From: an uncultured Opitutia bacterium
Lineage (GTDB): Bacteria; Verrucomicrobiota; Verrucomicrobiia; Opitutales; Opitutaceae
Length of the DNA stretch: 64,000 nt
NCBI GenBank assembly: GCA_903859715.1
Contig: CAIONS010000061.1
Location: 1 to 64,000 of the forward strand
Direction of reading: 5' to 3'
Of the stretch, positions 5,138 through 11,046 are shown in pieces. Position numbers and translations under genes: made by a program. The first letter of the stretch is position 1. Each line of letters opens with the position of its first letter. The notes below the pieces were generated by a model that did not search any database, had not been told where the DNA came from, and saw only the letters and a list, made by a program, of their open reading frames with translations.

Positions 5138-5581
5138 TTATTTCAGCACGTCGGCGTGGAATTCCTGCCAGCTGTCGAGGTCGTTAAGGTGCACCGCGTC
5201 CTTCACGGCCGACGCATCATCCGGCAGACCGTTGTTCTTGAGGATGCCCTGGCGGGTGGCGTCGTCGTGGTTGTAGCCGAGCACACTCGCGTTGTGTTTC
5301 GCGATGGTAGCGGCGTCGAGCTTCACGCCGGGCTGCTTCTTGATCCACGCCTCGAGCTGCGGGTACGTGGGGCGGCTGTCCTTGATGAATTTCAGGATGG
5401 CGTCTTTGTTCAGGCCGAGTGCATTGAGGGTCATCATGTCATAGCCACCGCCGCAGCCGGGATAGCGGGGGTCGAGCTTGCCGCGGGCCTCGAGTGAGGC
5501 TTTTTGCCAGAAACGGGGCAGATGCAGCACGCCGAGCGGGCCAGTGGTGCCGGAACTGATGAGAGGAATGAAGGTACTCAT
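5138..5581 (-). CDS. DUF5069 domain-containing protein
   Basis: A 147-residue soluble protein starting MSTFIPLISSGTTGPLGVLH. A longer reading back to 5749 exists, but its extra residues are basic and low in quality, and this ATG gives the usual family start. The segment LPRFWQKASLEARGKL followed by YPGCGGGYD resembles the DUF5069 family, whose function is unknown. No signal peptide or membrane segment is seen. It is a single-gene unit with its own terminator downstream. Confidence 0.7.
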   Translation of the reverse strand: MSTFIPLISSGTTGPLGVLHLPRFWQKASLEARGKLDPRYPGCGGGYDMMTLNALGLNKDAILKFIKDSRPTYPQLEAWIKKQPGVKLDAATIAKHNASVLGYNHDDATRQGILKNNGLPDDASAVKDAVHLNDLDSWQEFHADVLK

Positions 5582-5735
5582 AATAGTTAGGGTTATGGGG
5601 TTGAAGATCAGTGGTCGAAATGACCGCAGTGGAAAAATCCTAGGCATCGGGAGGCGTTTGTCTAGGGCGGCGCGAAAAAATCGCCGGCGGTGCGATGTCC
5701 TCGACCGGACCCGCCGGATGGTATGCCATGATTCC

Positions 5736-6266
5736 ATGCCGGCCCTCACGCGAACCCAGCTCCGCCAGCTTCATCGCAGACTCGGAATCCCCGCGAATTA
5801 TACCGTGCAGCGGCACCTGCCCTGGCAGCGCGAGGCCCGGCGGCTTGTCTCAATCGGCCCGGCGGCCGACGACGGCCAACCGGTTCGGCTCACGCCGCGT
5901 GCCGCCGCCGCGTGGGCCAAAATGCAGGCTGCGGCCGCGCGCGATGGCATAACGCTGCTCCCACTCTCCGGCTTCCGCAGCGTGGCCCGGCAGGTCAAAA
6001 TCATCCGGGCAAAACTCGCCGCCGGCAAATCCATCGGCCAGATCCTGCGTCTCGTTGCCGCCCCCGGCTGCAGTGAACATCACACGGGTCGCGCCCTCGA
6101 TCTTGGCTCGCCGGCGAATCTCCGGCTCGAAACCGCCTTCGCCCGGACCCGTGAATTCCGCTGGCTCCGCCAACACGCCGGCGCCTTCGGCTTTCACCTC
6201 TCCTACACCCGCCACAACCCCCACAGCATCGGCTACGAACCGTGGCATTGGTGCTGGAAATCCTAA
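5736..6266 (+). CDS. D-alanyl-D-alanine carboxypeptidase, M15B (VanY) family
   Basis: The 176-residue frame has the M15 zinc signature SEHHTGRALDL (His and Asp ligands) and the C-terminal third ligand in GYEPWHWCW. LPLSGFRSVARQ is the usual substrate-side motif. Family members trim the terminal D-Ala of peptidoglycan stem peptides. The ATG at 5736 is chosen; an in-frame ATG at 5718 would add six residues. No clear signal peptide is visible, which is unusual for a periplasmic enzyme, so export is uncertain. It diverges from the DUF5069 gene. Confidence 0.85.
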   Translation: MPALTRTQLRQLHRRLGIPANYTVQRHLPWQREARRLVSIGPAADDGQPVRLTPRAAAAWAKMQAAAARDGITLLPLSGFRSVARQVKIIRAKLAAGKSIGQILRLVAAPGCSEHHTGRALDLGSPANLRLETAFARTREFRWLRQHAGAFGFHLSYTRHNPHSIGYEPWHWCWKS

Positions 6267-6300
6267 TCAACCCATTGCGGTTCATCGGGATGGGTACTAG

Positions 6301-6345
6301 TTTAGAATAGTTCTAATTATCACTTGCTACTTAGAACCATTCCAA
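6301..6345 (+). promoter_or_regulatory. Two operator-like palindromes (ICE/Per-box type)
   Basis: Box 1 at 6302-6316 is TTAGAA-TAG-TTCTAA, a perfect 6-3-6 palindrome preceded by another T. Box 2 at 6331-6345 is TTAGAA-CCA-TTCCAA, with one mismatch. Their centres are 29 bp apart. They lie 49 and 20 bp upstream of the Fur-family start at 6365, and box 1 contains a -10-like TCTAAT. The pattern fits the alpha-proteobacterial Irr box (TTTAGAA-N3-TTCTAAA, from memory) and is also close to PerR boxes. Autoregulation and control of suf are inferred. Confidence 0.75.
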
Positions 6346-6364
6346 TTGCTTGAGTCTCCCGATC

Positions 6365-6796
6365 ATGTCCCCGACCCCCATCACTACCCCCGACGCGCTC
6401 GCCCAACGCCTCGCCCACAGCGGACTGCGCTCCACGCCCCAGCGTGAAGTCATTTACGACGTGCTCCTGAAAAAGCGCGATCATCCCACGGCGGATGAGG
6501 TTTACGCCCGCGTGCGCACCGACCTGCCGAGCATCTCGCTCGCCACCGTTTACAACTGCCTGGAAACCCTCGTCCAGTGCGACCTCGTCCGCGCGGTCAA
6601 CTTCGAGCGCGGTCCCACCCGCTACTGCCCGAATCTCCGCCCGCACGCCCATTTTCACGACGAACAGAGCGGCTCGACCCACGACATCGATCTGCCCGCC
6701 GACCTGCTCGAAAAGGTCAGCGCCGTCCTGCCCCCCGGCTATGATGCCAAATCCGTCGAAATCACCTTCCGCGGCAAAGCCCAGGCCAAGCACTGA
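6365..6796 (+). CDS. Fur-superfamily regulator, Irr/PerR-like
   Basis: A 143-residue protein with the Fur winged helix ([32 protein letters not shown]) and a C-terminal dimer/metal domain. The usual zinc CxxC pairs are absent: where Fur/PerR has CxxCG this protein has [12 protein letters not shown]. The regulatory site keeps H40, H94 and H96, but the acidic ligand is replaced by C88 inside YCPN, giving a Cys-Pro dipeptide of the kind used in heme-regulatory motifs. This arrangement is closer to Irr than to Fur. ATG 6365 is preferred over the upstream TTG at 6350. It sits 46 bp before sufC, so it probably controls iron-sulfur assembly and itself. Confidence 0.85.
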
Positions 6797-6842
6797 CCTC
6801 GCTGGATCCTTTCACATTCCAGCCTTCAACTTTCAACTTCGT

Positions 6843-7598
6843 ATGTCCTCGCTCGAAATCAAAGACCTCCACGTTTCCATCGGCGAAAAACAAATCGTCA
6901 AGGGCCTCACGCTCACCGTCCGCAGCGGCGAGGTGCATGCCATCATGGGGCCCAACGGCACCGGCAAGTCCACCCTCGCCAAGGCCGTGGCCGGCCACCC
7001 CAGCTTCACCATCACCTCGGGTGACGTGCTGCTCGACGGCCGCTCCATCCTGGCGATGCAGCCCGACGAGCGCGCGCGCGCCGGCCTCTTCCTCGCCTTC
7101 CAGTACCCGAGTGAAATTCCCGGCGTCTCCATCGCCAACTTTCTCCGCGCCGCCGTGCAGGCCCGCATGGGCGAAGGCGAGGAGCTCGACGCCACCGGTT
7201 ACTACAAGCGGCTGTATTCGAAAATGGATCTGCTCAAGATCGACCGCAAGTTCACCTCGCGGGCGATCAATGACGGCTTCTCCGGCGGCGAGAAAAAGCG
7301 CTGCGAGATCCTCCAGATGGCCATGCTCGAGCCCAAGTTCGCGCTGATGGACGAGACCGACTCCGGCCTCGACATCGACGCCCTCCGCATCGTCGCCGAC
7401 GGCGTCAACGCCCTCCGCAGCACCAACCTCGGCGTCCTCATGATCACCCATTACCAGCGCCTGCTCGGCTACATCGTGCCCGACCACGTGCACGTCATGT
7501 GGGATGGCCGGATCGTGAAGAGCGGCGACAAATCCCTCGCCCTCGAGCTCGAGGCCAAGGGCTACGACTGGGTCAAGAAAGAGCTCGTCCGCGCCTAA
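6843..7598 (+). CDS. sufC: Fe-S cluster assembly ATPase SufC
   Basis: The 251-residue ABC ATPase has Walker [10 protein letters not shown] (36-44), Q-loop FQYP, the SufC-type signature FSGGEKKR, Walker [12 protein letters not shown] and switch His in MITHYQR. SufC powers the SufBCD scaffold in the cytoplasm. The frame stays open upstream across the regulator's end, but this ATG gives the standard SufC start [13 protein letters not shown]. It is followed 21 bp later by sufB. Confidence 0.97.
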
Positions 7599-7619: not shown

Positions 7620-9077
<1,458 letters not shown>

Positions 9078-9175: not shown

Positions 9176-10495
9176 ATGTCCGCCTCGCCCACTCTCGCCC
9201 CCGCCGCCTTGGGATCGTTCACGCCCGAGGTCTTTGCCGCCCATCTCGCCTCCGTCTCGCACCTCCCGGCGTGGTGGCTCGACCGCAAGCGCGCAGCCTA
9301 TGAAAAATTCGCCTCGCTCCCGCTGCCGAAGCGCACCGACGAATCCTGGCGCTTTGCCACGCTCACCGGCCTGAAGCTCGACGGCTACGTGCTGCCCGCC
9401 GCCGTCACGGCCGCCCAGCTCGGCCACTCGCCCATCGGCATCGCCAAGGCCGGCAAGCTCGTCCTCGCGAACAACCGCCTGGTGGCGCAGGAACCCATCT
9501 CCGCTGAACTCGCCGGGCGCGGCGTCATCTTTGAAACGCTGCAAAACGCCCTCCTGAAGCATGGCGACCTCGTGAAGGCGCATCTCCTGGCCCAGCCCGC
9601 GAAGCAGGGCTCCGAGAAATTTTCCGCCCTGCACACGGCGCTGCTCAATGATGGCGCCTTCATCTACCTGCCGCGCGGCGTCGAGCTCGCGGAGCCGCTC
9701 GCCGTGTTCCACTACGCGCACGGTGCCGCCGCCGCGGTGTTTCCGCACACGCTCGTGATCGCCGAGGGCAATTCCCGGGCGACCGTCGTGGATTTCTTCC
9801 GCTCCGCTGATGACGGCGCCCATTTCGCCTGCGGCCAGAACGACCTCTATGCCGCCCATGGCGCCCAGCTCACCTACACGGCCGCCCAGACGTGGTCGCG
9901 CGAAACCCTCTCGTTCCAGTCCAATTCCATCGTCGCGCGTCGCGACGCCCGGGTGCAGTCGTTCAACCTCCATCTCGGCGGCCGCCAGTCCCGCCACGAG
10001 AGCCATAGCGAGCTGCAGGCCCCCGGCGCGCACAGCGAAATGCTCGCCCTGACCGTCGCGCACGGCAGCCAGGAGTTCGACCAGCGGACCCTGCAGATCC
10101 ACCAGGCGCCGCACACCAGCTCAAACCTGCTCTACAAGAACGCCCTGCTCGACCAGTCGAAGACCATTTTCTCCGGGCTCATCGTCGTCGACCCTGACGC
10201 ACAGAAAACCGACGCCTACCAGAGCAACCGCAACCTGATGCTGAGCGACGACGCCGAGGCCAATTCACTCCCCGGCCTCGAAATCCAGGCCAATGACGTC
10301 CGCTGCACTCACGGCGCCACCTCCAGCCGCATCGATCCCGAGCAGGAGTTCTATCTGCAGGCCCGCGGCATCCGGAAGGACGACGCCGGCGAACTCCTCA
10401 CCTTCGGATTTTTTGAGGAGGTCCTCAGCAAGCTCGCCAGCGAGCCGCTGCACGACGCCTTCCGCGACCTGATCAAGACGAAGTTCAAGAAGTAG
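9176..10495 (+). CDS. sufD: Fe-S cluster assembly protein SufD
   Basis: A 439-residue SufB/SufD-family protein. The N-terminal helical part includes WWLDRKRAAYEKF and KRTDESWRF, typical of SufD. The core has QSKTIFSGLIVVDPDAQKTD, then NLMLSDDAEANSLPGLEI and CTHGATSSRIDPEQEFYLQ, the usual SufD C-terminal motifs. SufD pairs with SufB and helps iron entry into the scaffold. It starts after the inverted repeat and is followed 8 bp later by sufT. Confidence 0.96.
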   Translation: MSASPTLAPAALGSFTPEVFAAHLASVSHLPAWWLDRKRAAYEKFASLPLPKRTDESWRFATLTGLKLDGYVLPAAVTAAQLGHSPIGIAKAGKLVLANNRLVAQEPISAELAGRGVIFETLQNALLKHGDLVKAHLLAQPAKQGSEKFSALHTALLNDGAFIYLPRGVELAEPLAVFHYAHGAAAAVFPHTLVIAEGNSRATVVDFFRSADDGAHFACGQNDLYAAHGAQLTYTAAQTWSRETLSFQSNSIVARRDARVQSFNLHLGGRQSRHESHSELQAPGAHSEMLALTVAHGSQEFDQRTLQIHQAPHTSSNLLYKNALLDQSKTIFSGLIVVDPDAQKTDAYQSNRNLMLSDDAEANSLPGLEIQANDVRCTHGATSSRIDPEQEFYLQARGIRKDDAGELLTFGFFEEVLSKLASEPLHDAFRDLIKTKFKK

Positions 10496-10503
10496 CCCCT
10501 CCC

Positions 10504-11046
10504 ATGAACACCGACCGCATCCTCTCCCGCGAGGTCACTGCCACGCAGATTCCTTCCGGCGACAAGACTCCCCTGCCCGCGGGCACGCGCATCACGATCT
10601 CGCAGACGCTTGGCGGCACCTACACCGTCGCCACCGACTTCGGTCTCTTTCGCATTGAAGCCAAGGATGGCGATGCCCTCGGCGAAACCGTGGCCGATAC
10701 CACGGTCAAGGCCGCCACCCTGGCCGGCGGCGCGCCCGACCCCGAGGCCATCTGGACCCAGTTGCGCCACGTCTTTGATCCCGAGATTCCCGTCAACATC
10801 GTCGACCTCGGCCTCGTGTACTCGATGGATGTGTCCGGCGACACGGCGGCCGGCTACAAGGTCGACGTGGCCATGACGCTCACCGCGCCTGGCTGCGGCA
10901 TGGGCCCGGCCATCGCCGAGGATGCGAAGACCAAAATTCTCCTGGTCCCCGGTGTCGGCGCGGCCGATGTCCGTATCACGTGGGAGCCCGCGTGGAACCA
11001 GTCGATGATCAGTGAGGAAGGAAAGATGAAGCTCGGCCTGATCTGA
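10504..11046 (+). CDS. sufT: Fe-S assembly factor SufT (DUF59/MIP18 family)
   Basis: 180 residues. An N-terminal beta-rich extension (1-75) precedes a DUF59 domain with FDPEIPVNIVDLGLVY (91-106) and the conserved cysteine C131 in TAPGCGMGP. SufT proteins act in Fe-S maturation when demand is high or iron is scarce. The position 8 bp after sufD supports this role. The N-terminal extension is characteristic of the long SufT form. Confidence 0.92.
   Translation: MNTDRILSREVTATQIPSGDKTPLPAGTRITISQTLGGTYTVATDFGLFRIEAKDGDALGETVADTTVKAATLAGGAPDPEAIWTQLRHVFDPEIPVNIVDLGLVYSMDVSGDTAAGYKVDVAMTLTAPGCGMGPAIAEDAKTKILLVPGVGAADVRITWEPAWNQSMISEEGKMKLGLI

Follow-up and report, generated by a model that had tools for sequence, protein, structure and literature searches.

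A suf-linked, Fur-family candidate regulator of Verrucomicrobiae whose predicted sensing site holds an invariant cysteine

A gene for a Fur-family regulator of 143 residues, for which we have coined the name FurX, lies directly ahead of sufC, sufB, sufD and a sufT-like gene in the window, by which we mean the whole 64-kb stretch of DNA that was analysed (positions in contig C61 of genome G000, an assembly of 3.18 Mb in 71 contigs that is 97.8% complete). FurX is the first gene of this series, all members of which are on the same strand, and it is preceded by two predicted operators (Table 1). The protein scores 84.5 bits against the Pfam FUR model (PF01475; cut-off 23.1), placing it in the Fur superfamily. 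Its translation lacks CxxC as well as any N-terminal Cys, and hence an N-terminal Cys-Pro, and it contains a Cys88-Pro89 pair followed by H94-A-H96-F-H98. The lack of CxxC, the Cys-Pro at C88 and the HAHFH motif had all been named in an original prediction made for this DNA, as had the combination of a regulator, a palindrome and a suf operon, and each of these is present. What had been missed was a second operator and, in relatives, a split between features that are conserved (C88, HxH and the palindrome) and features that are not (P89 and the absence of CxxC). Just upstream of FurX, positions 5478-6266 of the window match PF02557 (123.6 bits), the domain of VanY-type D-Ala-D-Ala carboxypeptidases.

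Table 1. Features of the FurX-suf locus, in window positions.
Feature	Position	Strand	Basis
Operator 1 (predicted), TTAGAATAGTTCTAA	6302..6316	.	Pattern match
Operator 2 (predicted), TTAGAACCATTCCAA, 29 bp from operator 1	6331..6345	.	Pattern match
FurX, Fur-family regulator, 143 aa	6365..6796	+	ATG at 6365, translation
Cys88 codon of FurX	6626..6628	+	Aligns with PerR Asp85
sufC, Fe-S assembly ATPase	6840..7598	+	TIGR01978, 349.6 bits, passes cut-off
sufB	7620..9077	+	TIGR01980, 632.4 bits, passes cut-off
sufD	9176..10495	+	TIGR01981, 255 bits, passes cut-off
sufT-like	10504..11046	+	TIGR03406, 200.6 bits, slightly below cut-off of 202.6; PF01883, 57.6 bits

The association of FurX with suf extends well beyond this genome. 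A class-wide search returned matches, paralogues among them, in 195 of 236 genomes, and from these we compared 70 orthologues, consisting of the window copy, 29 of the best loci returned and 40 chosen from the list for spread. Suf genes lie directly 3' of FurX on the same strand in all 70, and sufC was found in 79 of 80 named relatives, the remaining contig being too short to tell. Across the 70 orthologues either sufC or sufB comes first after FurX, depending on the family, while the FurX-suf link is constant. When 288 genomes of the phylum were searched, class members bearing FurX scored at least 136 bits and the best match outside the class scored 114. Inspection of the loci of 18 PerR-like relatives (16 from outside the class and two from the same order) revealed no suf genes nearby except for one weak ABC-ATPase match. 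The window's own genome contains two Rrf2-family genes, so a second Fe-S regulator may exist there.

The TTTAGAA half-site of the original prediction begins at 6301, and the palindrome TTAGAATAGTTCTAA occupies 6302-6316; operator 2 has one mismatch to TTAGAANNNTTCTAA. Nothing else in the window matches with two mismatches or fewer, and 0.29 matches would be expected, although the window alone is a modest argument for operators because 4 of 100 shuffled versions of it contain two or more matches. Across all 3.18 Mb of the genome, too, no third site comes within one mismatch of the pattern. At two mismatches the pattern occurs at 8 places in that genome, compared with 36 for the reversed pattern, indicating that it is uncommon there. 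A wide FurX regulon in this genome was considered and rejected, as only the two suf sites have at most one mismatch. A consensus promoter scan of 6200-6900 yielded no forward promoter and only one minus-strand match.

Comparison with relatives turns the case for these putative operators from modest into strong. Scoring the best match to TTAGAATnATTCTAA within 230 bp around the start, we found a palindrome with at most three mismatches upstream of FurX in 66 of 70 orthologues, compared with 1 of 1166 random stretches from the same loci; the orthologue rows are related, and the 66 operators are therefore not 66 independent events. The upstream palindrome is weak or absent in the other four (L051, L060, L064 and L065, with 4 to 6 mismatches), one of which, L064, has a perfect palindrome just 3' of FurX, before sufB. 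In the set of 80 named loci, 79 have the palindrome and 66 have a second site at exactly 29 bp. As a control, we looked at 14 genomes of the class that lack FurX: all have sufC and sufB, and 13 are without the operator, their best matches upstream of suf having 4 to 7 mismatches. G427 (locus L302), which gave no FurX match, carries a decayed operator pair (at most three mismatches), 29 bp apart, before sufC, and no regulator gene intervenes; FurX was seemingly lost from this genome, with the presumed operators left behind. Among the matches listed, 23 sites are perfect, of which 17 are upstream of FurX and one is between FurX and sufB; the others are at sufD (two), dps (one), mbfA (one) and an unassigned position (one). 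Because the perfect sites cluster in this way, FurX appears tied to suf and, locally, to iron storage and export genes. With suf adjacent in 70 of 70 orthologues and the palindrome present in 66, one part of the original prediction, that suf in this class is controlled by a regulator of the Fur family acting at a palindromic operator, is very likely correct.

The residues of the predicted sensing site provided a further level of detail. In Bacillus subtilis PerR, the diagnostic residues are reported to be N61, which lies in the helix that reads DNA, and D104, which belongs to the sensing site (PMC8638851), and the metal ligands H37, D85, H91, H93 and D104 (PMC8063818). The equivalents of the two marker residues, N64 and D107, are present in all 70 FurX orthologues, as are H40 and H96, and H94 is found in 69, the exceptional row carrying an insertion there. 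The full PerR ligand set is not reproduced, as the residue corresponding to D85 is Cys (C88) in 70 of 70; for the 80 named loci, Cys at this position cannot count as independent evidence, one of the search patterns having included C88. A check set beforehand, that relatives should keep both C88 and the palindrome, did not fail. Across six positions of a reference alignment, PerR and Irr read H-N-D-H-H-D and FurX reads H-N-C-H-H-D in 36 of 37 rows; the row that departs from the pattern is the one with the insertion, and Cys occupies position 88 in all 37. The same position is Asp in each of the 18 PerR-like relatives, in the Bacillus and Listeria PerR proteins and in 3 of 3 Irr rows. The suggestion that C88 takes the place of an acidic metal ligand agrees with its alignment to PerR Asp85, but the accompanying description of this feature as Irr-like is not supported, since Irr keeps the Asp. 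Two more Fur-family paralogues in the window's own genome, L002 (contig C48) and L003 (contig C56), have altered sensing residues, their six positions reading H-R-H-Q-Q-E and P-R-N-N-H-E; the L003 gene faces an apparent superoxide dismutase gene.

An AlphaFold model of FurX has the ordinary Fur fold (mean pLDDT 85.8, pTM 0.77), in which C88 belongs to a predicted strand at 85-88 and the HxH motif to the next, at 94-99. A Foldseek search with this model returned a YlaN-Fur model as the top match, followed by PerR and Fur chains, and nearby solved structures include PerR-Zn-Mn (3f8n, TM 0.78/0.81) and Leptospira PerR (5nl9). Fold comparison did not separate PerR from Fur, and no match under 0.001 was found in a viral library. 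No NCBIfam model was passed, the best being PerR at 82.1 bits against a cut-off of 180, a strict threshold given that Listeria PerR itself reaches only 127.3 of 180 bits. In a tree of all rows FurX forms its own clade (96/91) and Irr a separate one (99/98); the two are again separate (99/98 and 100/99, respectively) when column 88 and nine long rows are left out. A group supported at 92/96 unites FurX and Irr with seven PerR-like rows and a PerR-like protein from a cyanobacterium, and Bacillota PerR is placed next to this group at a weak 67/32, so it is the residues, more than the tree, that speak for the designation 'PerR type'. Among the reference rows, E. coli Fur, E. coli Zur and one IrrA were labelled from records, two Irr rows are backed by NCBI cut-offs, and the Listeria, rhizobial Zur and Fur/Mur rows were named from motifs; according to its entry title, the row labelled CjFur in the all-row tree is the PerR of Campylobacter jejuni. 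The trees do not show FurX inside Irr or inside Zur, and instead give it a clade of its own in the PerR/Irr group.

We propose that FurX is a metalloregulator of the PerR/Irr group that probably represses its own gene and suf through the promoter palindrome, sensing by way of a metal-loaded site. The suf linkage, the candidate operator, the way it occurs together with FurX, the set of site residues and the unchanging Cys are taken directly from sequence, and the working outlined here extends from them by homology. A FurX homodimer would bind the 7-1-7 palindrome TTAGAATnATTCTAA when the sensing site is loaded with metal, with two dimers, 29 bp apart, bound in this family. The site would be the His3Asp2 site of PerR with Asp85 changed to a Cys thiolate, such that metal held by H40, the residue-88 ligand, H94, H96 and D107 closes the dimer on DNA, as in PerR; Fe2+ is the favoured metal, and C88 may act as a ligand or as a redox switch. 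Because the palindrome lies in FurX's own promoter, repression of FurX itself and of suf, rather than activation, is the most likely outcome of binding. Once the metal-loaded state is lost FurX would leave the DNA, and Fe-S cluster building would go up under iron shortage or under damage to clusters by oxidants.

Conservation of Cys residues could be read differently, with C88 acting together with C65 and C72 to sense oxidants, nitric oxide or sulfane sulfur, or to hold an Fe-S cluster, which would make FurX an analogue of IscR or SufR. The frequencies of these residues (C88 in 70, C65 in 65 and C72 in 44 of 70 orthologues) are compatible with such a sensor, as are the position of FurX as the first gene of suf, like that reported for SufR in Mycobacterium (PMC6034842), and the [2Fe-2S] cluster reported to bind E. 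coli Fur (PMC11001641). However, C65 and C72 are not invariant, and the full PerR-type set of metal ligands is kept, which would be needless for a pure thiol switch; we therefore consider this reading unlikely.

An Irr-like mechanism would have apo-FurX on the DNA, to be released or degraded when heme is bound at HxH or C88, so that suf would follow heme or iron status. The palindrome is ICE-like, agreeing with the ICE consensus. A sister relation of FurX to Irr is not rejected by the AU test (p-AU 0.44), the two share a tree group, and perfect palindromes occur in relatives at mbfA and sufD, while Irr is reported to affect mbfA and suf in Rhodobacter (PMC3413700). Nevertheless, FurX reaches only 64.9 bits (cut-off 150) and 59.9 bits (cut-off 170) on the NCBI Irr models, far under the cut-offs that two rhizobial Irr proteins pass (232.6/211.7 and 232/213.3 bits), and the Asp-to-Cys change is seen in 0 of 3 Irr rows. 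Bradyrhizobium Irr is reported to have Asp111 at the position of FurX Cys88 and to carry its heme-binding Cys29-Pro30 near the N-terminus (PMC4700492), where the window FurX has no Cys-Pro. A Cys-Pro heme motif at C88, also part of the original prediction, loses ground because P89 is Pro in 56 of 70 orthologues and replaced in 14, so such a motif is not what selection keeps. Nor can the absence of CxxC be counted as an Irr trait, since 28 of 70 orthologues do have a pair of CxxC motifs; the zinc motif was lost in part of the FurX family, the window protein included, with C88 kept, and its absence is a change within FurX. Taken together, Irr is a fair analogy for the regulon and the palindrome, not a demonstrated kinship or mechanism, and an Irr-like working of FurX strikes us as quite improbable.

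Equally doubtful is a Zur-like role, in which the thiolate site binds Zn2+ and suf answers to zinc or to zinc mis-metallation: the regulatory site of Zur does carry a Cys (N2OS composition, C79 in Streptomyces Zur; PMC11077047), and the nearest Cys of E. coli, Sinorhizobium and Shinella Zur aligns with position 88 or no more than one column from it, but FurX is not grouped with Zur in either tree (a joint clade, formally not rejected, has p-AU 0.17 and a log-likelihood 20.7 lower), it lacks the other Zur residues at aligned positions and keeps non-Cys sensing residues of the PerR type, and the genes observed in the regulon have to do with Fe-S clusters or iron.

Palindromes were also found away from the main suf promoter. 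At L102, L103 and L105 (G067, G216 and G083) they lie where an additional suf cluster or a sufD copy of its own begins, with 0, 0 and 1 mismatch, respectively. A perfect palindrome precedes the iron exporter gene mbfA (484.7 bits, passes cut-off) at L100 (G218), and another precedes a Dps-like ferritin gene (below NCBI cut-offs) at L099 (G076). At L082, L083 and L115, palindromes that are perfect in G033 and G051 and have one mismatch in G179 precede the gene for a heavy-metal P-type ATPase by 7 to 8 bp; iron-efflux pumps are found under PerR control. Since 2 to 5 Fur-family genes occur in each of the genomes with the ATPase, dps and mbfA sites, the protein that binds these sites may be one other than FurX. 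One-mismatch palindromes near genes read as tatA in two families (L104 and L106) may be due to chance, and a site in G194 was rejected as an mbfA site, as it lies at the 3' end of a gene read as hisA.

In genus g28, which we take to be Akkermansia, FurX is the single Fur-family match in 5 of 5 genomes tested. PerR-box-like palindromes are located there 10 to 12 bp before the genes for rubrerythrin (7 genomes aligned) and catalase (4 genomes), at loci L278-L282, L286, L287, L093 and L148, and another stands 17 bp ahead of a radical-SAM gene (TIGR04053; 4 genomes); at katA, the half-site TTATAAT resembles a -10 box, so that the palindrome there overlaps a likely promoter element. A degenerate PerR-box-like pattern was not enriched in six g28 genomes (72 forward matches versus 60 for the reversed control). 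The palindromes at peroxide genes would fit a PerR role of FurX, a suggestion that we treat as a lead only. Going further, it is conceivable, though we hold it only tentatively, that a lineage spanning the class rebuilt the PerR site to His3-Asp-Cys as a sensor built into suf, responding via thiolate-bound iron to oxidants, to iron itself and perhaps also to the state of sulfur or clusters, and that in the Akkermansia-like genus, where it is the sole Fur-family protein found, FurX may also run catalase and rubrerythrin. Sensing through thiolate-bound iron is not described for PerR or Irr in those parts of the literature that were compared. A search of the open-access literature found nothing on a Fur-family protein at the suf operon in Verrucomicrobia, or on an Akkermansia PerR with rubrerythrin.

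In conclusion, the main result holds: throughout the class, a probable regulator of the Fur family is linked to suf and has an invariant Cys in its predicted sensing site. If the proposed role is true, the head of the Fe-S operon, occupied in other bacteria by IscR or SufR, belongs to a Fur-family protein in Verrucomicrobiae, and Akkermansia-like genomes with one Fur-family gene found would have a single candidate for both iron and peroxide control. An invariant Asp-to-Cys change in the best-studied metal site of the family is, moreover, a natural test of that ligand's role in metal choice and peroxide sensing.

Among known systems, SufR and IscR resemble FurX in heading Fe-S operons, and we presume the role to be the same; they come from other protein families, IscR from Rrf2 and SufR from one outside Fur. 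Irr of the Rhizobiales and Rhodobacterales shares with FurX the HxH motif, the lack of CxxC seen in the window protein, the tree group, an ICE-like palindrome and suf and mbfA as targets, but it keeps the Asp and forms a separate clade, FurX falls below the Irr cut-offs, and the loss of the zinc site arose within FurX. Zur has a Cys at or adjoining the same position of the regulatory site; it belongs to another branch of the tree and differs in its remaining ligands. PerR of B. subtilis is like FurX in its marker Asn and Asp, the three His of its sensing site and its 7-1-7 palindrome. The operator half-site is TTAGAAT in FurX and TTATAAT in the PerR box, and FurX differs further in having Cys for Asp85, in physically heading the suf operon and in passing no PerR model. 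For the missing zinc site of the window FurX there is a reported precedent in Leptospira PerRA (5nl9), a PerR without structural zinc (PMC8638851), and suf is reported to be repressed by PerR in Streptococcus mutans (PMC11631912). PerR acting on suf, PerR without structural zinc and a Cys in the Zur site are thus precedents for features of FurX.
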